DNA of 64,000 nt from assembly GCF_010093595.1 (NCBI RefSeq), contig NW_022985473.1, positions 62,001 through 126,000 of the forward strand, given 5' to 3'. The translations under genes and the position numbers were made by a program. Shown here in pieces: positions 4,600-26,689 of the stretch (the first letter of the stretch is position 1; each line of letters opens with the position of its first letter). The stretch is from Mytilinidion resinicola. Its lineage: Eukaryota; Ascomycota; Dothideomycetes; Mytilinidiales; Mytilinidiaceae. Below the pieces are notes generated by a model. It searched no databases. It was not told the origin of the DNA and worked only from the letters and a program-made list of their open reading frames with translations.

Positions 4600-5230
4600 A
4601 ACGCTGCTGGCAGCTAGCCAGGCACTAGTGGAGACATTCCTTCATAGGCGAACTCCAGATTAGAGGACTACACTGGCATCTTTGTAAACTATTTCTTAGA
4701 GCTGATGATACGCTGACCTTTACTACTTACAGCGCTATGCCATAACTTTGGAAACTCCATAGATCTGCTCAATGTATCCCGATAAGCATTGATACTCTTG
4801 ATGTAATGAAAACCTCTGCGCAGTAGAAATAAGGCTTATGTTTGACTAGCGAAAGACATGGTAGCTGGAGTACTCCTTACAGTGGTGTCGAGATAGAAAA
4901 GAAGGAGTCTAAGTACATCTATCTAACACCAATACGTTTCTTAGGCGTTTGAGATAATGAAAAGATAGATGCATTAGATATTGAACCACCTTATAATCTG
5001 CCAGAGACCTACTAGCTAGGGTACCTCTTACATTGGTGTCGAGCGAGAAAGAATGGAGCCCGAGCAGTGAAATGTCCGTGTGCCCACACTTATGACCTGA
5101 TACTGTAAACCAGTAGGGAATGTGAAGTTCTGCGCGTCTCAATCTAGCGATGTTTGCGGATCTCTTACGATAAACTTTTGAAGATACAGAGCAACTAGAA
5201 TATCTTAAGGCCATTTCGTAGGCTTAGAGG
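4600..5230. repeat. Dispersed repeat family (ACAGTGGTGTCGAG core), about 151-bp period
   Basis: Two clear units share TTACAGTGGTGTCGAG / TTACATTGGTGTCGAG at 4877 and 5028 (151 bp apart), each preceded by a GCTAG or GCTGG plus TAC box and followed by an A/G-rich GAGAAAGAA stretch. The core matches the array at 23230-24180, so this is a dispersed tandem family. The interval 4491-4600 shows nothing else. Confidence 0.55.
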
Positions 5231-6782: not shown

Positions 6783-7436
6783 ATCTCGAGCCAGCCCATA
6801 ATCCCTCTAAAAAAATCAAGCCTCAATCCAAGTCCCCTTCCAATTCTCATTTCGAGCACGATTCACGGCCCCAATTGCACAACCTCCACCCAAAAACCCC
6901 CAGAAATTGACGCCGCCACAGCCCCCAACTTCCTCAAATCCACCATCGGCATCGCCATCTCCACCTTCCCGATCATAATCGCCTTCCTCCTCCTTTCCGC
7001 CGCAACCCTCGCATTTGTCGCCTACTGGTGCATCAACACAGTCGCCAATTTTCTGAATCTCGACGACGCCAGCAAGGAAAACAATTTGCCCGGGGTATAC
7101 GGCGCCGCTGGCGTGTGCCTGTTTGTTGCACATCTCACCATTATCAGTGCACTGGTCGCCAAGGGTTCGGGGGTGGCAGAATGTATTGAGGGCATGTTGC
7201 AGAGCTCTTTCGCGCTGTCTCTCGTCATGCTGACGCTTTGCGGGACGGCGTTGGTTGTGAGCAAGGGGTGGCGGGTGTATGCTGGGAATAGAGGGTTTAA
7301 GGGTCGTGGGGGGGATAGGTACCACCAGATCAGATCAATTCTAAGCTCTTTCCTTACACCTGTTCGCTTTACGGCCCTAGATCATCGTTCCTGCTCGCTT
7401 GACACCGCTGTGAGGAGGGCCTTAGCTAGCAGGTAG
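6783..7436 (+). CDS. Possible multi-pass membrane protein exon, gene model incomplete
   Basis: One frame, open through this interval, encodes a strongly hydrophobic stretch at about 6940-7035 (STFPIIIAFLLLSAATLAF), followed by two more hydrophobic stretches (GAAGVCLFVAHLTIISAL and SFALSLVMLTLCGTALVV), giving three likely membrane helices. No ATG lies in frame between 6600 and 7100, so a first exon upstream joined by splicing, or a decayed gene, must be assumed. The tail after residue GFKGRG runs toward a tandem repeat at 7400 and is probably not native. The reading is supported only by the hydrophobic pattern; no family is recognised. Confidence 0.3.
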   Translation: MSSQPIIPLKKSSLNPSPLPILISSTIHGPNCTTSTQKPPEIDAATAPNFLKSTIGIAISTFPIIIAFLLLSAATLAFVAYWCINTVANFLNLDDASKENNLPGVYGAAGVCLFVAHLTIISALVAKGSGVAECIEGMLQSSFALSLVMLTLCGTALVVSKGWRVYAGNRGFKGRGGDRYHQIRSILSSFLTPVRFTALDHRSCSLDTAVRRALASR

Positions 7437-7760
7437 TTGGCTAGGCAAGAGGTAGCGGTCTTTCCATTGCATCAATCTTTACACGCTAAACACCCTACAG
7501 TATCAGACTAAATGTCCAGGTGCGCAGATATGCACTGCTTAGGCTGCACGATTGCGCACTCGGTGCCGCTGTGAGGAGTGGCTCAGATAGAAAGTGGCTA
7601 GACAGTCATAAGGTACTTTACTACCCATTACATTGACCAGGCTGCGCTAAACACCCTACAGTACTAGGAAATAACCCTAGTGAGATGAATATACGGCTGC
7701 TCAAGCCTCCCTATTAGTCTCTTGACACCACCGTAAGGAGTGCCCTAGCTATCACCCATC
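7400..7760. repeat. Short tandem repeat block, 161-162-bp period
   Basis: Three diverged units share the core ACCGCTGTGAGGAG / ACCGTAAGGAG followed by a CTAGCTAnnA box and AAGGTAG. The cores GTGAGGAG, GTGAGGAG and GTAAGGAG begin at 7410, 7571 and 7733, so spacings are 161 and 162 bp. A second shared box, CTAAACACCCTACAGTA, lies at about 7485 and 7648 (also about 162 bp apart). No gene is supported between 7437 and 8627. Confidence 0.6.
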
Positions 7761-8627
7761 CGCGTAGTCAAAAGGTAGTCCAATTCCCGGCTCGACCCAT
7801 ATCTCATAGCTCCTCCCCCTCCACCGCCGCGATGCCGACCATGCCGAATGAAGGTGCAGGGACTAGTGTTGGTGCCGAGGAGATGATTGTCGAGGATGTT
7901 TCTAACGGCGGAGGGATGTAGCCGGGTGCTAGTTCCGGCAAAGCCAATGTTACGCTCGACGACGAGTTGAATGCTTTATGAATTGGCATTTCCAGACGCA
8001 ACGAGTGGGCGTGGGGATAGTATATGAGAACGGCGGATGGTAAAAGGCTAGCTATGCAGATGCTTCGCACGAGTCTTGATTCCAGGAATTGCGGATGACG
8101 AGGTAATCGTTTGTACTGTCGATGTACATGGTGGCTGGCTTTTCCATTTTGTTGAGCGGGCGGTGACTGCTCGCATGAGGGTCGACCGGTTGAGATGGGA
8201 AATGGAAGAAGGCTTGAGAAGGAGAGACAGGAAGAGAGAAACAGGGCCATTCTCGGAGATATAAAAGTACAGAATTCCATGAAGATCCGAATGGAATTCA
8301 GATCGTGGTTTTCATGGACGATGAACGCGCTAGACATGACTTGATGTGAGACGCCTTGCGTCAGTCGAGGTTTGTCGGTATCGTCGTCGGACGTGCTTGC
8401 ATTCTTCATAAATATTGGCCCGCCAATCAGGAGCATTCGCAGGACGCGCTAGCGAGCTTCGAAATGGTCGTAGCATCCGTCTTTCAAGAACCATTTTCCG
8501 ATCATCCTGAGTGTGACATGCGAACGTACCTCTAAACCAAACTCGTCTCCACAATCACAATCACAACGACATCTTAGGAAGCAAACTCATCTATTGATCA
8601 TCCACAACCCCCCATCTACAACCCAAA

Positions 8628-9203
8628 TCACACCTCCACAACCGGCCTCGTCACCCTCACCCTCGCCGCCGCCTCCTTAAGCACCTCCTTCTCCTCTTCC
8701 GCCGCCCCATCCCCAAACACCTCATCCATCTGCTCCAACGTCCGCCCCATCGTCTCGGGCACCAAAAAATACGCCCAAACCGCCGCGAGCACACAAAACA
8801 CCGCAAAAAACACATACGTCCCAAACCCGGCATTCTGAATCATCGGCGGCACCATGACGCCCACCACAAAATTACTCAACCACACCGTCGCCGTGCTCAG
8901 CGCGACCCCCTTCGCCCTCGCCGCGCTCGGAAACACCTCCGCCGGCAGCGCCCACGCCAGCGGGCTGTAGCTCACGCCGTAGACCAGGATATACACAAAC
9001 GCCATGGCCGTCGTCGCCCACCCGGCCGCCACATGCGCCGGCCAGTCCTTGTCAAACAGCTCGACCAGGACCGCCATGATGACATACGGCACCGCCATCC
9101 CTATCGCACCATAGAGCGCCAAGGGCCGCCGCCCGACTTTATCGATGACAACGAAGCACACGAGCACCGCGACGAGCTGCGCGATGTTGAGCACGCCCGA
9201 CAC
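8628..9203 (-). pseudogene. MFS sugar transporter, C-terminal half of a split gene (inverted)
   Basis: The minus-strand frame gives about 191 residues that match TM8-12 of a sugar porter: SGVLNIAQLVAVLVCF, IDKVGRRPLALYG, YSPLAWALPAEVFPSAARAKG, and the closing PETMGRTLEQMDEVFGD with an acidic tail. It has no proper ATG: the frame starts in GTG-TCG-GGC, and the DNA upstream on its strand (9204 onward) is repeat. The piece supplies exactly what the plus-strand half at 2727-3861 lacks, with only about 5-8 residues missing between GQSD and SGVLN, and shares its GC-rich codon use. The two are therefore read as one gene broken by a repeat and an inversion. No stop or frameshift is seen inside this half, so the break looks recent. 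Confidence 0.85.
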
Positions 9204-9800
9204 GCTTCTACCACTACATATGATGCATCCATCTGGCTCCCTAATAATTGCTCCGAAGGAACTCGTAGGTTTGGGCCTTATAAAACAGGCTCAGCACCAA
9301 TGTTTCTCCATCACTTCTACACTCCACTTTCTTTCTATGGAGTATCACCAACACATAGGCAGGCTTCGATCCCGCTCCCTGATATTGCTCCAAAGGAGCT
9401 TGCTTCTCCGAATAACAGGAAGGAATTGTGACCTATATAAGAGGCTCAACCTTGAGCTCCCTCCATTACTCCTATACTTCACTTTCTTTCTAAAGTCCAC
9501 GCGGCTACCAACATAGAGCTTTCAATCTCGCAGGCTGTTATCATGCTCCAAAGGGACTCGTAGGAATGGGATCTATAAAAGAGGCCCAACCCCAAGGTGC
9601 TCCATCACTCCTACACTCGACTTTTTTTCCGTGGAATAATTACCAACACATAGGCAGGCTTCAATCCGCTGCCTGATATTGCTCCAGAGGAGCTTGCTGC
9701 TCCGAATAATAGACAGGAATTGTGGCCTATAAAAGAGGCTCGACCTCAACCTTCTTTCATCACTCCCACACCCCATTTCCTCTCCACGGAGGAACCTGCA
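9204..9800 (-). repeat. Degenerate tandem repeat at the second broken end of the transporter, with TATA-like boxes
   Basis: Four units share CTCCATCACTCCTACACTC on the plus strand (cores at about 9306, 9461, 9600 and 9755; spacings 155, 139 and 155 bp). Each unit is preceded by a TATA-like box, TATAAAA or TATATAA, at 9279, 9434, 9574 and 9728, followed by GAGGCTC. Read on the minus strand it is the same family as 3862-4490, so the two blocks form inverted copies flanking the interval 4490-9203. Confidence 0.65.
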
Positions 9801-10217
9801 AGACACCTATGGTGCCAGGTGGACTTGAGAAAGGGTATGAGAGCTGGTTCCCATCCTCATTCCCTCGCTGTTCTTCGTTGCCCGCCGTTGTTAACTAGGT
9901 GAAGAGCCCGTCCCGGCCGAGTTTCGAGGCTAGGAACATGATATCCACCATGGCATCCTGCCGCACTTGCCTGGGGACCCCATACTGCACTTGAGGGGTC
10001 TCCTAGGCATGAAGTGAAGTGGTGAGGATGAGTAAGCAGGTTTCGCGTGACGCGCGCCTGCCTATTTATTCCGGTCGCCGTCGTCAACACAACCTTTCCT
10101 CCTCCACTCCACCCCCAGCAGCCAGCGTCTCTACCTCATCTGCACCGCGTCGTGAGATCGTCCAGCCTCGTAATCACTCACTCACTGCCCATCGTCGAGC
10201 ACTTCAACTCCGTCGCA

Positions 10218-11381
10218 ATGTCGTTCAACAACAGTAAGGACCTCTCAATCGGCCTCACTCCGCCATCTTCGGCCGCCCGCCTCCACACCAGAGCTGTCTT
10301 GCTAACCTATTGCCTAGACCCTCAAGCTGCCGCCGGTGCTTCGAAGGACGATCCGTTCGCTCGTCACCTCAACCCTTTCATGCCGAAGCGCGCCGATACC
10401 GGTGCTCAGCTCTCCACGCTCAACAACCGCATGCGCGGCCTTGCTATGGACCTCTACCTGAAGGAGGAGGAAGTCAGGTTGCTACGCGAGAACGTCGCGC
10501 GTCTCTCGGACCCCGAACGTGCTTCGGAGGCAGAAATCATCGCCAGCAAGGATGCCGACATCGCGGCCCTGCACCAAGAGCTCTGGAGAGCGAACCAGAA
10601 GAACGAGAGCACGGACCGGACGGCCCGGCTGCAACGCGAACACATCCAGGTCCTGCAGCGAGACTTGAACAAGTGGAAGAACGTTGGCGATGTCGAGGCC
10701 CTGCAGGTGGCGCTCGAGCAGAAGAACGAGGAGTTGACGGAGGTCTGTGCCGACCTGGAGGCCTTCAAGTTCGAGCGGACGCATGACAAACAGACGATCA
10801 AGACGCACGCCGAGCAGATCGAGCAGCAGAAACAGGAGATGAACCACCAGGCCGCGGTCATCGAAGCGCACCAGCAGGAGATGCAGCGTAGGGACGCCGA
10901 GGCCGTCGAGAAGATCCAGCAGTTGGAGGAGCAGCTCAAGCAGGCCGCGTCGGAGGCCGGCCAGTACATCGCGAAGCTCGAGCAAGACCTGAAGCACCGC
11001 GCGCCAGATTCGGAGACGATGAAGAAGCTCACCGACGCCCAGGTCCAGATCGGGAAGCTCCGCGCGAGCGCCACGCTCGCAGAGCGGAATCTAGGCAACA
11101 TTGTGCGCTCGAAGCTCGTGGGCGCGGTCTTCCTGAGGCGCCCAGACCCCTCCACCATCCTGACAGAGGAGGTCCTATGCTGCTACAATTGCTGGGCCCG
11201 CAACGAGCAGTGCGACAACAAGGTCGTATGTCGGCGCTGTGCCGACAACCGGGTGCCGTGCCGCCGCTGGCGCTGCGCGGCGTCCGTCGTTGGGGAGACC
11301 GTATGCCCTAGAGTGAACTGCCCGCATAACCACGACTGGAACGGATGGCTGAAGGCGGAGGTCAAGCGCCCTGTATGGTAG
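10218..11381 (+). CDS. Coiled-coil protein with C-terminal Zn2Cys6-like and CCCH zinc motifs (paralog 1)
   Basis: Exons are 10218-10233 and 10318-11381; the first exon is only 16 nt and the intron is GTAAGG...CCTAG. The product has 359 residues. Residues about 60-285 form a long charged coiled coil rich in Q, E, K and R heptads. Residues 294-320 carry C-x2-C-x6-C-x5-C-x2-C-x6-C, exactly Zn2Cys6 spacing (CYNCWARNEQC...CRRCADNRVPC). Residues 325-344 add C-x9-C-x4-C-x3-H. A paralog with the same order lies at 34395-35406. By family analogy a nucleic-acid-binding or dimeric regulatory role is possible, but the usual basic CRxRKxK of fungal Zn2Cys6 factors is missing, so function is open. The ATG at 10218 is preferred to one at 10047 because splicing then joins MSFNN to NPQAA and the upstream residues look like leader. 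Confidence 0.75.
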   Translation: MSFNNSKDLSIGLTPPSSAARLHTRAVLLTYCLDPQAAAGASKDDPFARHLNPFMPKRADTGAQLSTLNNRMRGLAMDLYLKEEEVRLLRENVARLSDPERASEAEIIASKDADIAALHQELWRANQKNESTDRTARLQREHIQVLQRDLNKWKNVGDVEALQVALEQKNEELTEVCADLEAFKFERTHDKQTIKTHAEQIEQQKQEMNHQAAVIEAHQQEMQRRDAEAVEKIQQLEEQLKQAASEAGQYIAKLEQDLKHRAPDSETMKKLTDAQVQIGKLRASATLAERNLGNIVRSKLVGAVFLRRPDPSTILTEEVLCCYNCWARNEQCDNKVVCRRCADNRVPCRRWRCAASVVGETVCPRVNCPHNHDWNGWLKAEVKRPVW

Positions 11382-11759
11382 ACTCTCCCCTAGTGTTTTG
11401 GAAAGGCGCTGACGGCATGTAGGTGGCTTCAAGGCGCTATTAGGCGCGTCAAGATGGTGCTGTGGTGGGTCTGATTTGCGGTGTTCGGAGTGGTGGGCTT
11501 GGAAAACGGTGGAGAATTCGGGCTGGTTGTGGATTTCCTTAACTGTTGATTGTAAATTAGTTTCTTTTGTCTACAATTCTGCCCATCACGAGGCCATACT
11601 GAATCGATTATGATTCCTCGATCGTACTGGAAAAATGATGTGAAAATCTGCGAGATTTGTGATGTGTGGGATGAGACATGATGAAATTGTGATATTTTTT
11701 ATGGTGTTGTGTTTTTGAATTCTCATCGTACAGCTTTGCCCACCATGCTACCATCTGAA
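11382..11759. other. AT-richer 3' flank, no gene seen
   Basis: After the zinc protein gene the sequence turns AT-richer with GTTTTG and ATTTTT runs. No reading frame is supported. It leads into the 161-bp array, whose first recognisable box is at 11760. Confidence 0.4.
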
Positions 11760-14700
11760 GACACCCCTGAACTTACTAGATTTTACACACAACGTACATT
11801 GTAGATCGTGCCTGCGGAGAAGAACAACCGATTCTGAGATTTTAGCATACTTTGTGAATTGAACCACCGCACTTACAGTTTTGACAACTATACTACCATT
11901 GGAAGACACTCCTAGACGTACTAGAATTTACGCACGACAACATCATGAACTCTGCCTCGTAGATTGTGCCTGCGGACAAGGATAGTCAAGATTTGTTGAA
12001 ATTTGAGCGTACATTGTGAATTGAACCATTAGACGTACAGTGTTGATACTCATCCTACCATTGGAAGACACCCCTAGGCCTATTAGTAGTTGAAATTAGC
12101 GATGTCATAAGCTCTACTTTGCGGATTGAGTCTGCGGACGAGAATAGTTGAGACCTGTAAAATTTCAATATATATTATAAATTGAGCTATTACACTTACA
12201 ATTTTGACAACACAGCTACAACTTGGATGCCCCTGGGCCTACTATAATCCACACACGACGATGTCATGAATTCCGTGTCGCATATTAGACCGGCGGACAA
12301 GGACCAACCGGAGGCGTAACATACTAGTATATGTCGTGAAATGAGCGTGAGGACGTATCGGTTTGACAGCGTAGCTACCTCTGATGGCGCTCCTGAGCCT
12401 ACTAGAATCTGCACACGCCGATGTTATAAGCTCTATGTGGTAGATTATGTCTGTGGAAAAGAGCGAGCAAGTATTAGCAGATAATGGCGTTCATCATGTA
12501 TTGCCATGTCGAACGCACAGTCTTGACAATGATGCTGCTCCTTAAAGACGCTCCTGGGCCTATGAAGAACGGAAATCCAGGATGTCATGAACCCTACACT
12601 GTAGATCGTGCCTGCGGAGAAGGACGGCCGAGTCTGAGCAGATTTTAGCGGAGGTCGTGAATGGAGCGGAGAGATACTGTCTTGATAATACAGCTGCGAC
12701 ACAAAGACACCCCTTGGCCTACGATGAACTGAAATCGACGATGTCATAGACACAACATCGTGAATTGGAGGGGCAGAGAACGCTCCCGATAAATGTTGCA
12801 GTTGGAGCGTGTATCATGAATTGATCGTGAAATCGCGGAGTTCTGACATCGAAGCTACCCTCGGAAGACCCCCCTGGGCGTACGAGGAATTGAAAATCGA
12901 CGATGTCATGAACTCTACGTCGCAGAACAGGCTTTGGAAAAGAACGAGTGAGTCTTGGGTGATTTTAGCATATGTCGTGAATTGAGCGAAAGGAGGTATT
13001 TCTTTGTGGACACAGATGTAACATGAAGACACCCCTGGGTCTACGAGGAATCAGAGTTGACGATGTCGTGGACGCGACATTGCGAAGTAGAGGGGTGGAA
13101 GAGGTTCCTAGAATTTGGAGTGTTTAGAATGTGAAGGGTGAACTGATCGAGGAATTGCGGACTCTAGAAAATGAAGCTACCTCTCGAAGACACCCCCGGA
13201 CCTACGAAGAATTGAAATCAACGATGCCATGGATACAACACCCTAGACCAGGCAAGAGACACAAGGCGATATAAACTAGTATATATTTAGCACAGGTTGT
13301 GAATCGCGCGAAAGATGCGGAGAGTTGGTGGTATAGACGCACCTTAGAGACACCTCCGGCGGTATCATGAACGAGAAACCAACATGTAAAGGTCGAGAGG
13401 TCGTGATTTGGACGTGTGGACAAGGTTGATGGAAATGAGTGTGAGCTAGACATGGCTCCTGAATTGAGCGGTAAGGACGTAAGCATTTGCGGGCGTAGAC
13501 ATACTTTCGGGACACCTCCGATGGTATCGTGAACGAAAAATCGAGATATAGAGGGCGCTAGCTTGCAGTTTAGACGTGCGGAGATAAATACGCGATCCTA
13601 GTACGAAATGAGTGCACGTTTCGAATCGAGCGTACGTAGAAGGGCACTTACCGATGTGGCTACGTCCTCGAGACACGCCTCAACGTATTGTGCATAAAAC
13701 AGCGAGATGTAACGCGCGCGAGGCCGAGAACTAGCCATGGAAAGAACGACAGGAGAAACCTGTACGATGTGAGGAAGTGTTGTAAATTGAGAGGATATGT
13801 CGAGATGGCTGCGCATAAAGCTACCTGTCTGAGACACCCCTGGCGCTATGAGAGTATTGAATGTGAGGATGTAAAGAGTAGAACGATGCAAACTTGACCT
13901 ATAGCATAGCACACCAACATCCCATAGAAATTGGACAAGCGTAGTGAATTGAAAGTGTATAAGAACACAGTTGCGCATGAAGATATCGTCTCAAGACACC
14001 TCCGACCATACGAGAGGATCTTATTCAACGATGTAAAGAGTGCGAGCTTATAGACCAAGCAAATGGAGAACGAGGATACGCTGTGGTATGAAAAGACCGC
14101 ACATGGTGAATTGAACGTGACTGAGGAAATGGCGGCGGGCGAAGCTATACGCTTGAGACACCCCTGACCTATGAGAGGAGCCCGCTCTACGATGTCATGA
14201 ATGCGCGCTCGCGATTCAGGGAAGGAGAAGAGGACAAAAGTGAACGATAAGAATTGACCATCCACGGTAAATTAAGGGCAAATGTGAAAATGGTTGCGGG
14301 AGTAGCTACACTCTCAAGACACTCCCGGGCCTATGAGAATAGCTCGCTCTACGATGTCATAAACGCGTGATCGCGAATTGGGAGGAAAGAATAGGGCAAA
14401 AAGAAACGATGGGAAACGACCGCCTATGGCGAATTAAGAAAATATAGGAAGACGGTTGCTGGTAAAGCTACACTCTTAAGACACCCACGGCCCTATTAGA
14501 GCGGTGCAGACGACGATGTCAAAGGCAGCACACGGTAAATCAAGGCTAGCGATGAAAGAATCTGAACACTAGAGAGAACGCCATAATATCGTGACTTCAG
14601 AGGAAGGACGAAGGTCGTTGCGCGTAAAGCTATCCATTTTAGATGCCGTAGGCTTTTCGAGTAGCTTGGAAAAGACAACGTCAAAAGCTGCACATTGTAT

Positions 14701-15370
14701 ATCAAGGCCGTCGAAAGAGGAACACGAAATTCTGAGCGCGTGTAATGATGTCTAGAATGGAGAACAACTCGGACGAGTGTTGCGCCTGGTACTATCATCT
14801 TCAGATACTCCCGGGCTAACTAGACCTTGTTAATGGATGTTAAAGACAAGACTTCGTGAATTAGGAGGCTGGAAAAAGAAAGCTGAATCACGATGATGAG
14901 ATTGATATTGTCTGAATCGAGGAGACGTAAGAAGACCGCTGCGCGTGAGAATATACTCTTCGGTCGCCCCAGGGCCTTTCACAGCAATGTACACCACGAT
15001 GTCATAGACACGGTGTCGCGAACCAAGAGAGTTGCAAAGGAAATCCAAAAATGTAAGCAGTTGTGACGACATCGTGATTTGAGCGTACCTACGAGACTGA
15101 CTGCGGAGAAGGATGTCATATTGAGACACCCCTGGCATAATAAGACTATGGGGTTCGAGGATGTCATAAACATCGAGTCGTGGATGAGAAGAATAGAAAA
15201 GAAGTTCCGACAAACTGGGACGGCGTCATGGCATCGTGAATTGAACGAGGCTAAAAGAAAGGCTGCGGGTGCAGGTATACCTTCAAGCCACCCCCAGCGT
15301 AACTACAGCAGTGCACTTGCCGATGTCATAGACACCACGTTATAAACCAGGCGAATAGGAAAGGAATGTT
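11760..15370. repeat. 3.5-kb array of about 22 diverged units with a near-constant 161-bp spacing
   Basis: A box of the form GACACCCCTGGGCCTA recurs with many changes. Its starts can be placed at 11760, 11905, 12067, 12226, 12386, 12547, 12706, 12867, 13028, 13189, 13349, 13511, 13672, 13833, 13995, 14157, 14318, 14480, 14642, 14804, about 14963, 15124 and 15287. From 11905 on, all 21 intervals lie between 159 and 163 bp, with a mean of about 161. Each unit also has a GACGATGTCATGAA box about 30 bp later, a TCGTGAATTGAGCG box about 105 bp later, and an AGCTAC box near its end. The period is not a multiple of three, and stop codons occur throughout, so this is not coding. Units differ greatly in sequence, yet spacing is held. 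Confidence 0.85.
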
Positions 15371-15511
15371 GATATGAGACGGAAACTGAATGTTATCTAC
15401 CTACACACTGTATAACAGACCCTGTTCGACTCACCGCCCTGAGATCATGCGTACTAAAGCCGTAGATTGACAACCCTAAAATACCTGTAATATACCCCAG
15501 CACCTACTAAT

Positions 15512-18500
15512 CTACAGCACAATCAAATTCCCAATCCGAACCCCTTGACTTAGAAAGTAATACCGTCTCCGCACGCCAACCCCCTTTGCACGTCTCAGCA
15601 GCGCCAGCGTTCTCTCTCCACCTCCAACCATGATCATCGGGATGGGATTCGGGCGGAGGAGGCCAGAGGGTGTGTACTGCGGTTCTTCAAGCAGAGGCTG
15701 GACGAGTGGGTTTATGCGTTGCTGCTCTTTGACGATATTCCGTCTTTGTTGGCGCATGGTGGGCTCGGGCTCGTTGTCGTTCGGAGGCTCGTCGTGCTCG
15801 GGGTACGATACCACAATCACGAGCTGAAGCGCATTAGTGTCAGGCGGGAATGCGGGGATGTTCCGTAGTTTTGCGGAGAAAGAGCAGCCACCGCGCGGTA
15901 CGACGAGGATCTGTGTGCTGCGGGCGACGTCGAAGGGCAAGCGGTCTGTACACAATGGAGTGGTATGGACGTGGATATTATGCCAAGCGAGTGGTGCATC
16001 GTCGGAGAAGGAGAGTTCGGCGTCGGGTTTGTCTGGCAAGGGAGCAGCGCCGGGGCCGGAGGGGATGGTGCCGGAGATATGCTGGCGTTTCACAGGGGGA
16101 GGGGAGGGAGGCGTGAGAGGGGCAGTTGGGGAGGAAAGGATGGATTGGATGCTCTGGAGGAGAGAGCGGACGTAGGAAGGATCGTCCGCGGCGGAGGCGG
16201 GGAGGTCAAGCTCGAGGTCGAAGTCCGAGAGAAGGTTGGCGGTATTGAGGGAGGTGTTGGAGAGGGTGGAGGTGATGCTCTCTTGGAGGGAATCGGAGTC
16301 GTACTCGTCCAAGCCTTCGGAGTCAAACTCGAATGAAGACGAGGGAGTTGGGGAGAGAGGGGCGTCAATGACGAGGTCGAGGGTTGCCGCGTCCCGTGTG
16401 CGCGTGAAGAAGGGGTCGACGGGATTGAAGGACTCGATGATGTCGCGGGTCATGAAGACTTTCTCGTCGCGACCTAGGGCTACATTGGAGATAGCGTAAA
16501 CACGGAACTTGTCTTCGAATGACATGCCATTATCGCTGATGTAGGTCTCTGGCTCGCGAATCATGCCAAGACGCAAGCCGCTCATGGATTGGACTAGGAC
16601 GCCGTCGTTGACTCGTTGTAGAGCACCCATATTGAGAACGCTGTTTGGGAGATTCGGAAAGGACAAATCAAAGGTTGTTCGCACAGCCATCTTCGAGCTT
16701 GTGCCATTGAACGGTACTAATTCTGGAGGCAGCGTCCAAGGGTAGTATGTGTAATTTGACGGGGATTGGATATCGGATATTGAGATGCTGGGGTGATCAT
16801 GATTGAACTCGACAAGCGGTGATTCGAGGGTCTCGACACTAGGCATAAGATGCAGTCTAGCAAGGCTAGCGGCATGGAAAACATCATTCCTAGCCGCAGT
16901 CGCAGAAATACTAAAAGGCACTGTTGGTGGAGGAAGAGGACAAACAGGCTGTACGCGAGACTCTTGGTTCGTGAATGAGGCTGACTTTCTTCTGACAGAT
17001 TGTGAAGGCCGTAAACGATTTGGTATGATGAGAGGATGTCCCTCGGTTGTAAAAACAAATGGCGCATCCAAGGTATTGAGCGGATGCGTGGGATCGAAGA
17101 GCAGGAAGAGGTACTTGGCAGTTTCTCCAAGGAAGAAGCTCTCCATGCGATCGCTCTGTTCGCCGGTGCGGACATCCTGCAATCCGGACCATCCGCATCG
17201 AGTCCAACATCTCCGTTTGATATCTCGAAGCGTCATCTCTCCGACATGAAGATACCATGGATCTTGAGTAGCACGATAAAGATACCACGTTGATTCGATG
17301 AACTCAGGTCGGCCGCCCCACCAACGGAGACCGTTCTCAATATTTCCAGAGGCAGTCGACCATCTTTCGGGCATTGCTGAGTATCTCGTCCATAATGCAG
17401 TATACAGCAGGTGTGTTTCAATAGCCTCGTCAAGTTCTCCAACAAGCGTGAGAAGGCCTTGGTAGTAGGCACTCAAGCTATCAATCCAGAATGCTCGCAT
17501 AGCACCTGTGTACAGGTCGACTTGGACATAGTGCGGATGCTGGTACATAGATCCGCGGTAGATGTGACGCTTGATTCCCGCGTGCGCTTCATTCCAAGCG
17601 TCGAGAAAAGCCTCGGGAGAATGAACGTTGGATTGGTCGGCATCGAATGGAAGACCGGAGAGGAGAATATAAGATTTGACGGCATACTCGAAGAAGCTAT
17701 CAATGCCAGCTCCAATCTAAATATGATCAATATAAATGCCGAAGAAATGATTGAAAGAATGGAACCTACACCTGTGTACGGTGAGACCCAATTCCCAGTC
17801 TCAGCGTCAATTCCAGCACCAATCAGGCCAGAACTGCTCCGCCTATCCCAAACTGCCCAGAACGCTTCTTTAGCTGCCTTTTCGAAGCGACCATCGCCAG
17901 TCAGCCGACTCAGCGTAGTGAACTCCAAAACGAGACTACCAGCGCCCGCACTGCATGTCTCTGTGACCTCGACATTGCCATTAGGACTCTTTTTGCACTG
18001 ACCGTGCTCCGCGTCAGTGTTGTAAGGAGAGTTGGCGTAGAAGGGTATGCCATGGCGTAGATTTACCCGTGGATACGGCAAACCCGTAGGCGTATAGAAA
18101 GCTGGAAGCAGACGCTCTCCGAGGTCTGCCGCAAGCCGCAGCAGTTGTCCATTATAAAGGAACCCGTTGCGCCATAGAATGCCCGTTTTCCCACGTTTTG
18201 TCACCTCCCTTGGCTCATATCCCCTGATTGGCAAATCCCCAACAGCAAACAGATGTGCACTCAAAAGGCCGCCGACCCCTCTGATGACTGTTTCAAACAC
18301 CTGCACCTTGCTATCCAAATCAAATCCTCGCGCCCTGCTGCCGTGACCAGCCGGACCTTCAGTCCCATCTCCGTAGTTGTCCACCAACAACGAAATGCCT
18401 TGCTGAAACTCTTCCAACGCTTTATTATAGCCTCGCTTCGTTGGGGGCGACGATGCCAGAATTGCAAGAGTGGACAGGCTGTCTATGAGGGTCAACGAGT

Positions 18501-18784
18501 AGTTCCCTAGCACGTCGTTCACTTCGATATGGGCGGGGTTTTCACGATCTCGGGTGAGAGGAGCACACGACAGAGGTCGCAGCTCGTCTTCGGGAAAGGC
18601 ATGGCGCATGTAATTGTCGTAACCATGGTAGAAGATGTCGCGGGTCTCTTGTCTGTATTTATCAGCACTTGCGCGCTTTGAAGTATTGCTACAGCGTCTA
18701 CCTGAGATTACCGATGGCCTCATCTGTCATGCCAGATGCGACCGTCGTCCATACTGCTAGAAGTAGCAGACAGAGCCATATCAT
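15512..18784 (-). CDS. MNL1: ER degradation-enhancing alpha-mannosidase (Htm1/Mnl1-like, GH47) with PA domain
   Basis: Exons on the minus strand are 18784-18702, 18652-17770 and 17716-15512; introns are 49 and 53 bp. The product has 1056 residues. Residues 1-18 form a signal peptide (MIWLCLLLLAVWTTVASG). A GH47 domain follows to about residue 500: RQETRDIFYHGYDNYM, VNDVLGNYSLTLIDSL, GAGIDSFFEY across the second splice, FIESTWYLYRATQDPWYL, FFLGETAKYLFLLF and FTTEGHPLII. These are marks of the EDEM branch. The C-terminal part holds a protease-associated segment (ILVVPRGGCSFSAKL). Known family role: trimming mannose from misfolded glycoproteins in the ER lumen so that they enter ERAD. No C-terminal HDEL is present. 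It is divergent to TIM50, with 400 bp between starts. Confidence 0.93.
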
Positions 18785-19184
18785 TCCTCCGGCCGGGTGT
18801 CCGCAAGTGCTCTTGAGCGTGCCCAGCCTCCCAGTCGATGGCATAACCGGCGGTTGAAGCGTGCAGGAGGCATGGGAGTTTCTGAGCAGAGGAAAACAAC
18901 AGTGCAGCCTCTATAGGGAAGACATAGCAGAACAGCACGCAGAAGTCATCGTTTGAGGGCGTATAGTACAGTTGAGGTCAGTCTGTCTTTCACAGTCCGC
19001 GCCGGGGCGGAAAAACGTCAGCGATGCGCTTGGACGTGCTTTCCCGCCATCGAAAGATCGAAGACTGGCGCAGTGAACATCAGCAAAACTTTTGCTACGA
19101 GGGACCCCTCTTCGTTTTCCCCAATGCAGTCTACTACGCAATAGTTCTTTAATCGCACACTCCTTAACCCTACCCTGACTCGCA
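18785..19184. promoter_or_regulatory. Shared divergent promoter of the mannosidase and TIM50 genes
   Basis: The two start codons face away from each other across 400 bp, with no other gene between them, so both promoters must lie here or overlap the leaders. No clear TATA box is seen, which fits housekeeping genes. The call rests on position only. Confidence 0.5.
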
Positions 19185-21044
19185 ATGCTTCCTAGGGCTG
19201 CTGCTCGCGCCCTCAAGGCCCGGCCAGCACCGCCATCTCCCTTTCCTGCTGGAGCTGCATCGACGCAATGGATACGACGCTACGGAAAAAATGACAAACC
19301 TCGCCCACCCCCTAGGCAACCTTCACAAAGCGACTCCGGGCGGAGGAATGTTGGCAGCGACTATACTTGGAAGCCATCTCAGCCCATAGACTTCGCGACT
19401 GCCAAGACCGCTGCAGAGAAAGCGGCTGCAGAACGAGCACAATCGCCTCTACAAAGCCAGAACACATCACAAGATGCCGAATTCTCGAGTCGACAGCCGG
19501 AGGACGATGCGAGTGCGATTCCAGAGAGGAATACGGTGCAATATGGCCGAGCCAAAGCGACGGAGCGCGCGGGGAGCACACAAGAAGAATTCAGTACAGC
19601 GCAAGATGAGTTCAGTGGCCCCAAGTCATCGAAAGCGAGCACCGCACCCACAGCAGAGGGCGCAGACGGGACTGCAGCACCGAGCGGACCATTGCCAGAT
19701 CTCCGCCAAGGCATTCCCTCGACTTTTGCCGCCGAATTCGGTGCAACGGAACCAAAGCCATCACAAAAAGCCAGCGAACAGGAAAGCACAGTCAGTGAGT
19801 CAATAGAGGAGCCAGAACCGGTGGCTGGAGGTGCTGGTGGTGGCCGTGGAAGTGGTGATCTGCCTAAGTCCGCATTCGAGACATCCGTCGACCGGAGGAG
19901 AAACAAGGTCGCGAACTACTCCTACCTGATGGCTCTGGTATTTGGCCTCACTGGAGCTGTCTACTTAGGGCGACCGTGGGAGAGCGAAGAAGAGGCAGCG
20001 CAACACCCTGATATCTCTTCAAGCTGGAACATCACGACTATGTACGACCGCGCGAAGGCGCGTATGTCAGGCCAGATGAGCTACTATACCGAGCCAACCT
20101 TTCCCAAATTGCTACCAGAAATGGACCCGCGACCTCCCTATACTCTCGTCCTGAGCTTGGAAGACATGCTTGTCCACAGCGAATGGACCAGCAAAAATGG
20201 GTGGCGGACAGCCAAGCGACCTGGCGTGGACTACTTCATCCGGTACTTGAGCCAATACTACGAACTGGTCATCTTCACCAGCCTCCCAATGCAAGTCGCG
20301 GAGCCTGTCATCAAGAAACTCGACCCCTTCCACATTGTGATGTGGCCCTTGTTCCGGGAAGCCACTCGCTATGAAAAGGGCGAGTACATCAAGGTACGCT
20401 CCTCTCCTCTTAAAACCTCATATTCCAGCCTAGCTAATCTATTCTAGGACCTTTCTTACCTCAACCGTGACCTCTCCAAAACCTTGATCATCGACACCAA
20501 AGCCTCCCACACCAAATACCAACCCTCTAACGCCATCATCCTTCCCCCATGGGACGGCACCCCCGGCGACCGAAAACTCGTCTCCCTCATCCCCTTCCTC
20601 GAGCACATCGCCACCATGGGCGTCCAAGACGTCCGCAAAGCCATCGAGTCCTTCAAAGGCGCCGATATCCCGACCGAGTTCGCGATCCGCGAGACACGCG
20701 CCCGCGAAAAGTTCAAGGCTGAGCTCGATGCTGAGCGGGCCAAGCGACCGAAGCACAGCGCTGCGGGCTGGCTTATGGGCGCGTTGGGCATGAAGGGCCA
20801 TCCACAAGGCGGCATGGTGGTTGGCGAGAAGACGGTTTCGGAGGGACTGGCCGAGGGCAAGATGCTGAGTGACCAGATCCGCGAGCAGGGGATCAAGGCG
20901 TACGAGGCGATGGAGAAGCAGATTCGGGAGAATGGAGAGGCATGGTTGAAGGAGATGGCTGAGGAGGAGAAGAAGATGCAGGAGGAGCAGATTAAGAGTA
21001 TGAAGAGTGGCATGACGGGATGGTTTGGGGGGAAGAAGGAGTAG
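19185..21044 (+). CDS. TIM50: Mitochondrial inner membrane translocase subunit Tim50
   Basis: Exons are 19185-20393 and 20448-21044; the intron is 54 bp, phase 0. The product has 601 residues. An arginine/alanine-rich presequence without acidic residues (MLPRAAARALKARPAPP) is followed by a low-complexity S/A/E-rich matrix stretch to about residue 240, one membrane helix (YSYLMALVFGLTGAVYLG, about 245-262), and an intermembrane-space FCP1-like phosphatase fold: YTLVLSLEDMLVHSEWT, KRPGVDYFIRYLSQYYELVIFTS, and after the splice DLSYLNRDLSKTLIIDTK. The DxDxT catalytic motif is degenerate (LSLED), as in all Tim50 proteins. The family is known as the presequence receptor of the TIM23 complex. The C-terminal 150 residues are helical and E/K-rich. 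Confidence 0.95.
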
Positions 21045-21605
21045 GCAGGGTGTCTGAGTCAAGCACGTCTTTGGGGGTTATCGAGAAACCGAGAGAGAAC
21101 GAAGAAAAGATGAGAGCGGTGGTTGTACTATTTTCCTGTAAGAGGTGGAGGCGGGTTGTCGTGCAATGGCGGGGATGATGTTAAATCCACTCTTGGTTGC
21201 GGGTAGCATGGGCATCGCCCTGGAGTTGTTGTCGTTCGGGTCTGTAGGTATATATCACAGATGCTATATGCTGCTAAAATTATGGTGCTACTGGCGATAG
21301 GTCAACCGACCATGGAGCACGGAACGTGACATGGGCAGGACAATAGAACAGCGCCTGGCCTTAAAGGAAATATGTAGTACCAAGGGCAACTGTAAAAGGA
21401 ACATGCTCCCAGGCTACGATCCCCACTCGCTGTCTGAGTGTATATCTGAGCAGGATCGGATGCCAACCCATTTCCATCACTCAATTGAGACAGTCACGTG
21501 ACGTCGAACTTTTCACAAATCACTTCCCACAGACGACTTTTCATCAATTCAATTTATGGTTATAGTAGTGTTTGGGGAACAACGCCACTACTTCCTACAT
21601 ACGAT
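21045..21605. other. Convergent 3' intergenic region
   Basis: The stretch separates the 3' ends of TIM50 and the aldo-keto reductase gene. It holds the palindrome TCACGTGA at 21494-21501, a bHLH/Cbf1-type site by sequence, but no start codon lies nearby, so its use is doubtful. No gene is supported. Confidence 0.4.
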
Positions 21606-23025
21606 TTAATCAGTGCTAACAGTCGGGTCCCACGCACAGGGTTCATATACCCCGTCTATGTGCAGCGACTTCAAGTCGGCATCCGAGAGCTCGAAGTCGT
21701 AGAGGGCCGCGTTTTCTTCGATCCGCGAGGGGGTTACGGATTTGGGGAGGGGAACGAAGCCCTGATGTGGTAGAGGGCGAGATTAGTGCGTGTTCCGTCC
21801 GGGAGTGGATGGAAAAACAGGAATAAGCGTACCTTTTGCAGCGACCACCTCAGCAGGATCTGAGAAGTAGATTTGTTATACTTCTTCGCCAGGGGAAGCA
21901 GGAGAGGGTCTTCAGCCTTCGTGGCACGGATGATGGGGCAGTACGCCTACTTTCGTTAGCATCCGCCTCCTCACAATCTCTTCACACTAACTTACCTCGA
22001 CAACCACCCCCCTCTCCTTACACCACTTCGCAATATCATCCCGCGGCAACCACGGATGCAACTCCACCTGATTCACGCTCAACACGCCCCCCGCCCCCTG
22101 CCCCTCCTTCCCATCCGTCTCCTTAATCCACCCCTCCAACTCCTCCAGATGGTGCACCCCATAATTACTCACCCCAATGCTCCGAATCTTCCCCGCCTTC
22201 ACGCCCTCCACTAGCGCCCTCCACGCGCCGATCCGCGCCTCCTTGCCGCCGTACGGCGCGTGGATGAGGTACAGATCGATGTAATCGAGTCCCGTGACGG
22301 ACAGGCTCTCGGCGATGTAGGCCTTGGCGGAGTCGTAGCCGAGGGCCTTCGGCGGGATCTTGGTCGTGAAGAAGACGGAGCTGCGGGGCAGGCCGGATTT
22401 CAGCAGCGCGGCGGCCGAGGGCGCTTCGTTGCGGTAGGCGACGGCCGAGTCGATGTGGCGGTAGCCGGTTTTCAGGGCGTGGGTGACGACGGATTCGGTT
22501 ATGTCGGCCGGACTGGGGGGTGTGAGTTGGGGAGGTGGGGAGAGGGGAGGATGGGGAGTTTACGTTTGGTAGACCTGGAGGGGGGTTAGCTAGAGTTTAG
22601 AGGATGGTAAGGGTCACGTGATGGGGAGACTCAGGAATGACATGTATCGCCAGTGATTCGAGATTTTTAGTTTGAGTAAGGAGACGATGAAATGCAGATG
22701 GGAATAATGACGGAGTGATAAAATTGATACCGATGCAAGGGAGACCAGGTCCAGAGCTGTAGAAAGGTCCAGGTGGTTGCTGCTAGTATATTCAACTTAC
22801 ACCATATCCTAGAATCGGTATCTCGTAGCCTGAGTTCAGCTTGTAGCTAGAGTTGATATTCAGGGTCATGTTTGCGGTAGCTTGACTTTGGAATCGTCGA
22901 GTGGTTTGAAGAGGTTGAGGTTTCAAAGCGTCGGGGCGAAGGCAGGACGCGCGATTTATACCCCTCTGGATGTTGAGGGCAGAATGGAGATTACGGGGAT
23001 ATCGGAGGAATTTGGATTGGCTCAT
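21606..23025 (-). CDS. Aldo-keto reductase, with optional N-terminal presequence
   Basis: Exons on the minus strand are 23025-22801, 22574-22564, 22512-21996, 21946-21833 and 21761-21606; the second exon has only 11 nt. The product has 340 residues, or 288 if the ATG at 22867-22869 is used. The AKR barrel is complete: IPILGYGVYQ at the start, GYRHIDSAVAYRNE with catalytic Asp and Tyr, FFTTKI with the Lys, LDYIDLYLIHAP with the His, IRSIGVSNYGVHHLEEL, VNQVELHPWLPR, and the cofactor loop VPLPKSV followed by R and EEN. The first 52 residues are basic with no acidic residue before Asp32 and look like a mitochondrial presequence. Substrate cannot be told; the family reduces aldehydes and ketones with NADPH. 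An 8-bp palindrome TCACGTGA lies in intron 1 (22614-22621). Confidence 0.9.
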
Positions 23026-23229
23026 CGGAGAAGATGTTTACAATGCTGTGTGAAAGAGCTCAAGGTGTTGAGGGTGAGGTCGATTTATAAGGGTGGTCGG
23101 AGATAGCACCATTCTGAAGACTACGCAGCGAGGTCACTAGCGCGTACTAAGTACGAAGTAGGCATCCTGGCATTCCGTAGGACTGGGGCTTCATCCTTCC
23201 ATGCCAGTTATTACGTTTTGACTGAACGG
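23026..23229. other. Short upstream region of the aldo-keto reductase
   Basis: About 200 bp precede the first repeat unit of the next array. Nothing besides presumed leader and promoter is seen; no TATA box is clear. Confidence 0.35.
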
Positions 23230-24180
23230 CGACCTCTAGCTGGGCCACCCTGACAGTGAGCGGCCAAAAATGAAGCCGATGCAGGGAGACATTCGTATCT
23301 TCGTTCTGTTGAAATCGGCCTACGTTTTGACGAACTACCTACCTGCCAACGGGGCAACTCCTGACAGCGGCATCAAGCGACCAAAAATGAATCCGAAGTC
23401 CGTAATTTCATCCTTTTCTTCGTGCTGTAGAATCAGCCTACGTTTTGACGAACTAGCTACCTGTTAATGGGGGTGCTCCTGACAGTGATGCCAAGCGGGC
23501 AGGAGTAAAGCCCGAGCAGTAGGATCTTCGCATACCTCTAAATCGGCTAGTGCTCACTATGTAAAGGCGAACGTAGTAGAGATCAGACTAGCTTTTGATA
23601 GCCGGGTATCTGACAACGGGGCTGCTCCTGACAGTGGTATTCAGCTTCTAAAGTAGCATTCGAGCAGTGCTCGTATCCGTATGGCTAAGCTTGTAGCTGC
23701 TCCAACGCTATTTCGAGGCTCCCGCATTAGAATTGGACCACTCTTCGACTGGCGGCTACCTGCTTGCTGAGCCACTCCTTGAAGTGGTGTTGGGCGAGCA
23801 AGAGAGAACCCTGAGCACGTCTATTTATTACTACCCAGTTTCTGAGACTCTGGACACGATGTCAATGTCAACATAGCGGGAATAAGACTGCCCTTTGACT
23901 AACTATCTATCTGCTAGCCAGGATCCTCCTTGCAGTGTTGTCGAATGAGCAAGAGAGAAATCCTACCAGCGTAATATTGAACTTAGTGGCTTTGTAGCCC
24001 CTAGACATGATATTAGGGTCCATACAACGATTATCAGACTACCTTTTGACTAATCAGCTACCTGACAATAGGGCTGCTCCTGACAGCGGTGTGTAGCTTT
24101 CAAAATGGCATTTAGGCGGTAGTATCCGTAGGTCTCTACTTTATATCAAACGGTTCTATGCAAATCGCTGGCTTCTCGAT
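23230..24180. repeat. Tandem array of ACAGTGGTGT family, period about 150 bp
   Basis: Units share the core CTCCTGACAGTGGTGT (variants GACAGCGG, GAAGTGG, GCAGTGTTG), at 23251, 23362, 23480, 23629, 23780, 23930 and 24081. The last four intervals are 149, 151, 150 and 151 bp; the first two are 111 and 118, as if about 35 bp were lost. Each core is preceded by a TTTTGACTA..CTACCTG box and in some units followed by CGAGCAAGAG. The same family occurs at 4840-5080. No coding frame. Confidence 0.7.
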
Positions 24181-24199
24181 TCTCAGTTAGTGCTGGGGG

Positions 24200-24760
24200 C
24201 CTTCACAAGTATTCGTCATGTAGCAGCGCACTCACACTAAAGTTTCATTTCACGGCCTCATTCAAAAACCTCGATCCGCCACTAGTCTCCGAGCGATGCT
24301 CTAATCTCTAGTATCCCGTTCTTAACATCTCATTCTTAAGCTTGCCAGTACATTCAGGTGGGGGGTATGAAGGATATTCCTAATGCAGCAGCGCACTCAG
24401 TCTAACACCTCAATTCACAGCCTTTATCAAAATCTCAATCCAACCCTACTCTCCCAGCAATGCTTTAATTCACAGCATACTGCTCTTGATATCTTGTTCT
24501 TTAGCTTGCCAGTACGTCTAGGGAGGTCTCACGAGTATTCCCGATGTAGCAGCGCACTCAATCCAACGCCTCAACTCACGGCCTCTATCAAAATTTGATC
24601 CTAACACAACTCTCCAAGCGATGCTTCATTTCACAGCGCCCTGTCCTTTACATCCCGTCCTCCAGCTTATTGATACGTTCGGGAGGGTCTCACAAGTATT
24701 CCGGATATAGCAGCGCACCTGATCCAACGCTTCATATCACGTGTTTGGTCCCTCAACTCA
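24200..24760. repeat. Tandem array of CAGCGCAC family, period about 161 bp
   Basis: Four units carry TAGCAGCGCACTCA, with CAGCGCA at 24224, 24389, 24550 and 24711 (165, 161 and 161 bp apart). Each unit continues with TCAACTCACGGCCT, CTCTCCAAGCGATGCTT, TTTAGCTTGCCAGTACGT and GGTCTCACAAGTATTCC. Sequence is better conserved than in the array at 11760-15370. It follows immediately after the 150-bp array but is a different sequence family. Confidence 0.75.
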
Positions 24761-25063
24761 ATATCCCGCCTCCCGGAACCACATCTATAATTACAAGTTA
24801 TGCCCTAAGTATTAGTTATGATGGCTAATATCAGTGCAACAATTACTATAAACACAACAATCTTCACTAGTTATAACGATCACCATTAGCTATAACAACC
24901 ACCATAAGTCTCAACTTGCATAACAAGTCACTACGCTTTACGGCAAAGAATGGGCCCGTTGCGGCCACGCTTGGTATCTATATCGTACAAAACGGCACCC
25001 ATAAAGGGGCCTAAACCCCCCTCTCTCGCCCCAAACACCCCCAAATCCCCATCCAACCACCAT
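24761..25063. other. AT-rich spacer with short ATAACAACCACCAT-like iterations
   Basis: From 24840 to 24930 the motif ATAAC/ACCACCATTA is iterated imperfectly several times. No gene is seen. It separates the repeats from the 3' end of the F-box-like pseudogene. Confidence 0.35.
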
Positions 25064-26422
25064 TCATCCCCCCAACGTCGTCAACCTGTCCCTACGCAGC
25101 GCCCACTCCCGGCCCCCCCTCATGCCGTCCGGCTTCGCCACGACGGCCTTTCCGACCATATTTGTCACTAGGACTCGTGTCGCCGCCGCCTCGCTCCGGT
25201 TCACGAAATCGTGAATAATGATGCCAATTACCGCGCGATACTCCGACGGTTCCAGCACCACCAGCTCCTCCAGCTGCAGCTCGTTGGCCATGTTGTCCAT
25301 AACATTGCCCAAATCTTGCACGGTGCACTGCTCGAGTCGCACGGCACGCAGCGTGGCGGCGTGGAGGGCCGTGAAGGCCTTAAAATTGTCGTCTAGTGTG
25401 CAGAAGCGTGCCAGCTTGAGGGTCTCTAGGTGCTGGAAGTGGATGATCTGGAAAGAGGAGAGCCAGCGGTCGAAGACGCGGTTGGTGGTGAGGGGGCGGC
25501 CCCAGGTGCCGTGCTCGGAGGGGAAGGTGAGGTCAAGAGTCGTGAGGTTTGGGACGAAAGAGAGGAACGTTGGGAGGTGGTTTGTGGGCGGCTTCGTGCT
25601 TGAATAGAGGAACTTATGCAGCTCGAAGGACAAGCTGAGGGTATCGAGGCGGCGGAGGGATGGTGTGAGGTACTCGCTGCGGACCTTGAGTGCATCGATG
25701 CCCAGAGCGCCGGCCGTTGTCTTGAGTTCTTTGAGGTGGATGCCCGATTCGGCGACGGCGGCAAGGACCATATTCAGCAGACTCTTGTGGGCGTAGTACT
25801 CGTACAGGTCGGGGATCTTGCTCTGCGCTTCGTCTAGGACCTTCTGTGCCGCGATTCCAGGCCAAATGGGGTGCGGATCTTGCTTGAAGTTGGTGTCATC
25901 GCGGTTGGCCAAGGGCGAGTAGATCCCAATCGACTCCACCTTGCTGAGCTTCCGGAGGCTATCAAGCAGGAGATCGTACATGGCGCCGTTGTTGAGATCG
26001 CGTTCCTAGTCGGTAAACATCTTCTTGTAGGCGTTCAGCGTAGGACGGCGACGATCTTTCCCTCCCTTGGTTGCGGCTTCGTCGACCCAGTCACTAAGAG
26101 CATCTACCCCTTCGTTGTGCAGCTTCTCCGTGCCGAAGGTGAGACTCCGGATATTCTCCGCTGCAGCGTTGTTCTCGGAAATGCTCTTGAGGCGTTCGAG
26201 ACTGCAACCAACGAGGCGAAAGGGGCCGGGAGTAACGCGGTATCCGAAAGCGCGCCAGGCGGCCGCCTCAAGGCTGCGGCAGACTAGGCGGACATTTTGA
26301 ATGTCGCGGAGGTCTTCGAGATTGTCGTTGATAAGCTCCAGGATTTCGACAGGCTGTTTGGAAAGGGTGGCGAGCGGATTGTTGAGGCAGTACTTGATAC
26401 CGGAACGCGTATATGGCGCCAT
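25064..26422 (-). pseudogene. F-box-like protein gene interrupted by one in-frame TAG
   Basis: From the ATG at 26420-26422 the minus strand encodes 138 residues with an F-box-like N-terminus (LSKQPVEILELINDNLEDL, then VRLVCRSLEAAAWRAFGYRV), ending FTD at a TAG at 26006-26008. The same frame continues without any shift into ERDLNNGAMYDLLLDSL and 305 further residues with repeated leucine-rich strands, to a stop at 25064. Without the TAG the protein would have about 452 residues, usual for these fungal proteins, which are thought to act as SCF substrate adaptors. Options are a recent nonsense mutation, a 102-bp in-frame intron (GTAGAT to CTAG) ending at this TAG, or readthrough; the context TAG-GAA is not a known readthrough signal. 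Confidence 0.7.
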
Positions 26423-26689
26423 GGCTGCTGCTCAAATTGAATGTTGCGTTGAGTGGATGAGTTTTGTGTGGTGTTGTGGAGCTTGTGTTGTGTTGTGTTT
26501 TGGGGTCCCTCTCGTGTTGTGGGGCTCGTGACGAAGTGACGGTGAAGCTGTCAAGGAGAGATAGACGGCCCGGGCCCCTTGAACGACATGTGGCTGTCCA
26601 CGAAATTGTGGCTGGAGGGCAAATAGAAGTTAGTGGATCGGGATAGACTGGAGCAGAGATTCTTATAGATACGCACTCTCTTTAGGACG
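26423..26689. promoter_or_regulatory. Upstream region of the F-box-like gene
   Basis: The region is T/G-rich (GTGTTGTG runs at 26460-26515) on the plus strand, so a C/A-rich leader on the gene's strand is likely. No further feature is recognised. Confidence 0.3.

Follow-up and report, generated by a model that had tools for sequence, protein, structure and literature searches.

The window analysed here is a stretch of 64,000 nt equivalent to C37:62001–126000 in a genome of 47.1 Mb and 44 contigs; coordinates are those of the window unless a contig (C) number is given. A focal array of tandem units sits between two convergent neighbours, a plus-strand open frame ending at 11381 and a glycosyl hydrolase family 47 (GH47) gene on the minus strand that was recovered as two overlapping frames and is therefore presumably spliced. 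The array is preceded by a shortened, damaged unit and, further to the left, by a head sequence, and additional sites of the same repeat family (family A) and of a second repeat family (family B) are present elsewhere in the window (Table 1). No tRNA genes were found in the window.

Table 1. Repeat arrays and neighbouring genes in the window, with family-A arrays on other contigs and family-B spacings on C37
Feature	Position	Strand	Units and intervals (bp)	Basis
Family B	4819–5066	−	two units, 151 apart	
Family B	7375–7789	+	three units, 161 and 162 apart	
Left neighbour, open frame of 444 aa without Pfam match, coding-like, pointing at array	10047–11381	+		
Head, left flank of focal array, 86% identical to left flank of C10 family-A array (C10:1411436–1411576)	11542–11684	+		DNA search
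Shortened (damaged) family-A unit, box at 11760	11727–11863	+	box 145 ahead of next box	profile
Focal array, family A	11865–15405	+	22 tandem units, 159–162; in order 162, 159, 160, 161, 159, 161, 161, 161, 160, 162, 161, 161, 162, 162, 161, 162, 162, 162, 159, 162, 162	autocorrelation, box chain, profile alignment; ordered intervals from profile built from units
Right neighbour, GH47 gene, two overlapping frames, pointing at array	15512–18723	−		
Family-B array adjoining inverted family-A array	23212–24119	−	117, 118, 149, 150, 151, 151	
Second family-A array	24246–24700	−	three inverted units, one weak (E 0.02)	unit model
Third family-A site	27647–27872	+	two partial units, 160 apart, one weak (E 0.03)	unit model
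Family-A array	C2:1.949–1.951 Mb		12 units; 173, then ten of 161–163	
Family-A array	C14:22.3–23.2 kb		161, 162, 162, 161	
Family-A array	C4:267 kb		162, 162, 141, then irregular	
Family-A array	C10:1.4117 Mb		66, 161, 66	
Family-B spacings by cluster	C37		161, 152, 151, 151, 108, 108, 108, 107, 108, 108, 152, 129; 151; 161, 162; 145; 117, 118, 149, 150, 151, 151	

Spacing and divergence of the focal array

In the profile alignment, the 21 intervals of the focal array had a mean of 161.05 bp and a SD of 1.07, with nine intervals of 162 bp, seven of 161 bp, two of 160 bp and three of 159 bp as counted by hand, and plain box matching gave a range of 159–163 bp. This agrees with an earlier note on this DNA, which had reported 22 boxes from 11905 to 15287 at intervals of 159–163 bp averaging about 161 bp. 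The box chain recovered the boxes from 12067 to 15287, that at 11905 being placed by eye because the chain mis-stepped there, and match quality was uneven, with 7 of 16 letters at 14641 and 9 of 16 at 15287. Autocorrelation of positions 11701–15400 over lags of 20–999 was highest at lag 162 (z 11.5), with more peaks at the multiples 321–324 and 483–485.

The units were found to be as far drifted as the note had described, sharing on average 48% of bases (range 35–73%, damaged unit included). Identity was 0.55 between neighbours and 0.37–0.47 between units at least nine apart; in the poorly conserved columns it dropped along the array from 0.435 to 0.20–0.28, which is about chance, and the tree of the units largely tracked array order. 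The focal array appears old, with local duplication as the apparent means of its growth. Tandem Repeats Finder did not report it, as expected for units so diverged. Columns differed in rate, with HKY lnL values of −3626.9 without and −3591.0 with gamma, and the heterogeneity was moderate (alpha about 2.8); the difference in rate speaks for, and its moderate size against, the docking-site reading discussed below. Repeat-induced point mutation (RIP) was considered as a cause of substitutions without indels and was not supported, with a composite RIP index of −0.21 and 794 transitions to 714 transversions between neighbouring units.

Family A across the genome

The focal array belongs to a family of non-coding tandem repeats that is dispersed through the genome, with 1 to 23 units per site. 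In genome-wide searches, GACACYCCYGGGCCTAYNAG was matched 70 times when up to 3 mismatches were allowed (reversed control, 39) and AGACACCCCNGGNCNTACT 50 times when up to 2 were allowed (control, 21), so that some of the single matches to these patterns are due to chance; a looser 18-letter box with up to 3 mismatches was uninformative (353 matches against 333 in the control). An iterated profile search was carried out on 250 kb of C37 and 21 loci on other contigs, with 20 of the 30 GACACYCCYGGGCCTAYNAG loci kept for the profile set and ten dropped, nine of these repeating the focal array and one overlapping a kept C16 locus. This search settled at 62 units, and a laxer scan of the same set gave 65. 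The earlier note had suggested looking for other arrays of about 161 bp in the genome, and family-A arrays with intervals of 161–163 bp were recovered on C2 (one interval being 173 bp) and C14. Other family-A sites were single or paired, and several showed irregular spacings of 66, 131, 141, 145, 173, 195 or 205 bp, which counts against a fixed spacing.

The head is 143 bp long and, measured by hand, lies at a similar distance from the first box at its two places (76 and 77 bp). Together with the first units it recurs on C10 beside an unrelated gene, and a DNA search of the genome gave no head copies beyond these two. That the shared head stems from a gene duplication was rejected, since the left neighbours show no similarity. 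From these alignments, head and first units look like an element that moved together.

Two-part motif, core and spacer

The unit core includes a two-part motif, GACACCYC-N26/27-GATGTMA. Searched as GACACCYC-N20..34-GATGTMA, it gave 38 exact genome-wide matches on 16 contigs and 3 in the reversed control, and the total length was 41–42 in 35 of the 38 matches (29 of the 32 outside C37) although 35–49 was allowed.

About 90 bp per unit were recognisable between arrays, unevenly so, with identities per 10-bp bin of 0.28–0.60, whereas in the spacer of about 70 bp the between-locus identities were only 0.25–0.29 (positions +55 to +125; background 0.252), in a gapless comparison that may understate spacer similarity where small indels cancel. 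The comparison covered 57 units from 12 loci and was made between loci only (1268 pairs), the damaged unit and any unit scoring below 25 bits being excluded. Between arrays, the core decays more slowly than the spacer. Spacer letters are lost between arrays, with the unit length being the same in C37, C2 and C14: the C2 and C14 spacers had no detectable similarity left to those of the focal array, within which spacers were still somewhat alike (0.30–0.39).

Unit length and indels

The earlier note had further suggested that length is under stronger constraint than sequence. Indels were simulated on the unit tree at the rate of other repeats in the genome (1 per 15.7 mismatches), giving a median spacing SD of 4.3 with a mean indel of 1.5 bp, or 8.3 with 2.6 bp, against 1.07 observed. 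None of 400 runs was as tight as observed at this rate, nor any of 400 at 1 per 30; the latter runs cover the slight overstatement of the expectation that comes from a control rate per raw mismatch and a tree in corrected substitutions. The observed SD was no longer unusual (P > 0.05) once the rate fell to 1 indel per 100 for the mean indel of 1.5 bp, or to 1 per 200 for that of 2.6 bp. With a simulated SD of 4–8, length thus looks constrained.

The pairwise gap count points the other way for family A. In BLAST pairs with 65–88% identity over 80 bp or more, mismatches per gap were 19.4 for family A (35 pairs), 40.1 for family B (19 pairs) and 15.7 for other repeats (59 pairs, among them the pair formed by the two heads and a C10 pair located close to family-A units), and the closeness of family A to the other repeats goes against a length constraint for A. 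Gaps partly cancel in such pairs and BLAST ends alignments at large gaps, so neither the value for A nor that for the other repeats is clean. The tree-based values of 75.5 (A) and 79.2 (B) substitutions per indel stand without a matching control. A looser BLAST run, with 11.0 mismatches per gap in the focal array and values elsewhere between about 4 and 60, was set aside because its gap costs over-fit gaps. Other diverged arrays on C37 likewise contained few indels. The earlier claim therefore stands as far as the narrow spacing and the length kept on C2 and C14 are concerned and is qualified by the pairwise count; a constraint on unit length is likely rather than proven.

Family B

Family B is an abundant dispersed non-coding repeat that occurs as single copies or as rigid arrays of 108, 151 or 161 bp. 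Its 97-bp core was nearly gapless in 16 copies with a mean identity of 60%, and when up to 3 mismatches were allowed, the pattern ACTGTAAGGAGNRGCYCAGCTAGCAG gave 157 genome-wide matches and its control 0, positions being available among the matches listed (100 of 157). No fold was predicted for family B, and its interpretation as a tRNA-derived SINE, prompted by look-alike boxes seen by eye, was without Rfam support. The two families are alike in being dispersed, non-coding, without fold and arranged in rigid short arrays. They differ in the commonest spacings, which for family B on C37 were 151 and 108 bp, and in their consensus sequences, the similarity of which was not above shuffles (p 0.18 and 0.95 for the two strands), so that a common origin was rejected. 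At two places, L035:1476–1859 (C18) and window positions 23212–24700, families A and B adjoin each other, their relative order and orientation being identical in both.

Genomic setting of the arrays

On C37:1–250000, six of ten A/B loci were located between convergent genes, compared with 25% of intergenic bases (p 0.02), on a gene map drawn from a crude codon score on this one contig; for comparison, 23 of 108 gaps over 400 bp were convergent. The adjacent A and B arrays at 85–87 kb were counted as one locus, and the arrays of other kinds at 22 kb and 155 kb were excluded. With loci whose flanks were readable by eye (L031, L026 and L046 convergent, L032 not), the count was 9 of 14 (p 0.002), leaving out L024, L025, L035, L049 and L053, whose flanks were not classifiable. 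Avoidance of promoters would give the same bias without any function. Elsewhere in the window, a permease frame at 31347–32864 shared 96% identity with a Lophium mytilinum protein; second among the matches listed was one from Lepidopterella palustris (82%). Judged by this one protein, the host is a fungus, as the earlier note had assumed, and probably closely related to Lophium (Mytilinidiales, Dothideomycetes).

Possible roles and origins of the arrays

As a best guess, put forward tentatively, the array may consist of evenly spaced candidate docking sites for a DNA-binding protein, kept at a fixed spacing and separating converging genes in the manner of a boundary or a terminator. This reading draws on the unequal decay of core and spacer, the fixed gap within the motif, the spacing repeated on C2 and C14 and its tightness relative to control indels, and also on the convergent flanks at six of ten loci and the non-coding character of the units, with neither a fold nor, in the stretches searched, an Rfam match that reached its gathering score. 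The motif GACACCYC-N26/27-GATGTMA would be the putative docking site of a sequence-specific protein, with neighbouring sites keeping a fixed distance of about one nucleosome repeat and the same helical face. Something may hold the unit spacing, and a fixed spacing would let the proteins, perhaps with nucleosomes between them, form a regular assembly that could act as boundary or terminator between the converging genes. If the length constraint is real, the arrays offer a natural test of whether selection acts on site spacing while the intervening DNA is free. The same question underlies nucleosome-length satellites, whose homogenised arrays make it difficult to test; here, the many small diverged arrays are replicates within one genome.

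A close rival, and a distinct possibility, is that the array is a satellite or minisatellite in passive decay, for whose spread a non-autonomous element may have been responsible; its units would simply have inherited their length, with indels being rare by chance. Head and tandem units would have landed at several places, grown by local duplication and now be drifting; in a variant of this course, the 90-bp module would have moved and each array would have duplicated the module with local flank, making spacers different from the start. The falling identity along the array, the unit tree mostly in array order, the head and first units beside an unrelated gene on C10 and the few indels in other diverged arrays of the contig are consistent with such a history. 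A spacing SD of 1.07 is, however, difficult to reconcile with the 4–8 obtained at the control indel rate, and the cores outlasting the spacers between arrays, the gap of 26–27 within the motif in 35 of 38 matches and the finding of two head copies only also argue against it. Helentron-derived elements are non-autonomous and contain internal tandem repeats. Family A resembles them in its dispersal and in the combination of a head with tandem units of variable number, but differs in that the head was found in only two copies (86% identical).

It is unlikely that the unit length was selected to fit one nucleosome repeat of about 161 bp, the array then phasing nucleosomes, a role that the earlier note had considered reasonable. 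Fungal nucleosome repeat lengths are about 160–170 bp, which makes 161 bp plausible, and similar spacings recur in three family-A arrays (159–162 bp on C37 and 161–163 bp on C2 and C14), in some family-B units (161, 162 and 161 bp) and in the main lags of the array at C37:155.6–156.3k. Family B, however, is equally rigid at 151 bp and at 108 bp (108, 108, 108, 107, 108, 108); as 108 bp is shorter than the nucleosome core, these units do not hold one nucleosome each, and this weakens nucleosome length as a general cause. In addition, the units showed no periodicity of conservation at 10–11.2 bp. Alpha satellite is a nucleosome-length satellite DNA with a CENP-B box that forms long (peri)centromeric arrays. 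As in such satellites, the units described here are head-to-tail, keep a short motif and are about one nucleosome repeat long (161.05 bp, judged against the general fungal range and not the host's own value). In contrast to long homogenised arrays in heterochromatin or centromeres, those seen here are short (up to 23 units), have an identity of 0.48 and are dispersed among genes, with spacer letters lost between arrays and length retained. Nucleosome-length satellites are a known theme (PMC8122249), whereas a survey of 282 species describes centromere-repeat monomer length as not conserved (PMC4053949). Among the papers listed in literature searches, judged by titles and abstract openings, none described arrays such as these.

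That selection on families A and B acts on how repeated docking sites are phased on the helix, with spacer letters free and spacing changing by whole turns of about 10.7 bp, is hardly probable; the arrays would then form protein scaffolds with a single face, in many cases between converging genes. Spacings of 66, 108, 118, 129, 141, 151, 161.5, 173, 195, 205 and 227 bp lay on a lattice of about 10.7 bp, with 145, 164, 254 and 263 bp as misfits. For 13 deviations from the family mode, 10.7 was the best among periods of 6–20 (p 0.014 with 10–11 scanned, 0.025 with 9.5–11.5), the modes of 161.5 (A) and 151 (B) being the analyst's choice, each class being counted once and jitter around classes (107, 149, 150, 152, 160) not being counted. 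Spacings of 131 and 205 bp came from a separate analysis, both being merged into 336 by the profile scan. Eleven deviations from new pairs in the pattern listings gave p 0.012, but mostly represented classes already seen, and the five new spacing classes gave no support for a helical period (mean cosine 0.04, p 0.45); the new-pair test did not include the C16 pair (287), any pair more than 270 bp apart or any pair spaced at the mode. Given this result and the off-lattice periods of other C37 arrays (167, 274 and 293–294), helical-turn quantisation of the spacings stays a hint and not a demonstrated property. If the helical-phase reading were true, at least two unrelated non-coding families in one fungus would be under such selection.

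A transcribed non-coding RNA locus built of repeated modules is improbable. The plus strand is purine-rich over the array, 2-kb windows inside it reaching an AT skew of 0.22 and a GC skew of 0.18, and the skew was present in moderately variable columns; the freest columns, however, were almost unskewed (0.02), RNAalifold predicted 0 consensus pairs in the 22-unit alignment, and no match reached the Rfam gathering score in window positions 8000–26000 and nine loci, the single match in 8000–26000 scoring 19.7 bits against a gathering score of 45. A remnant of a protein-coding repeat gene of 54 codons (162 bp) is very improbable indeed: the period, which the earlier note had called not a multiple of three, is so as a mean of 161.05 bp but not in 12 of the 21 intervals (159 or 162 bp, compared with one third by chance), yet the other nine shift the frame, no single frame is open across units (stops per frame in 12 to 20 of 22 units for the 90-bp core and in 19 to 22 for the whole unit), and 0 of 56 windows over the focal array were coding-like.

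Other repeats on the contig

In addition to families A and B, C37 contains arrays of other kinds. At C37:155640–156290, an array whose main lags are 161 and 162, and in which a GGATCACGTGG box is repeated, had no family-A or -B model match. A non-coding array at C37:22100–22800 showed lags of 108, 215 and 323, with no A or B model match inside and a weak family-A match at 21604–21637, and a GC-rich (0.605) array of period 167 at C37:150100–150950 was not coding-like by codon score. Within the window, diverged duplications with lags of about 294 and 291–293 bp were present at 9249–9784 and 62332–63597, and a further dispersed repeat at 26660–27130 had diverged copies at C37:198.9–199.2k, 223.0k and 233.3k.
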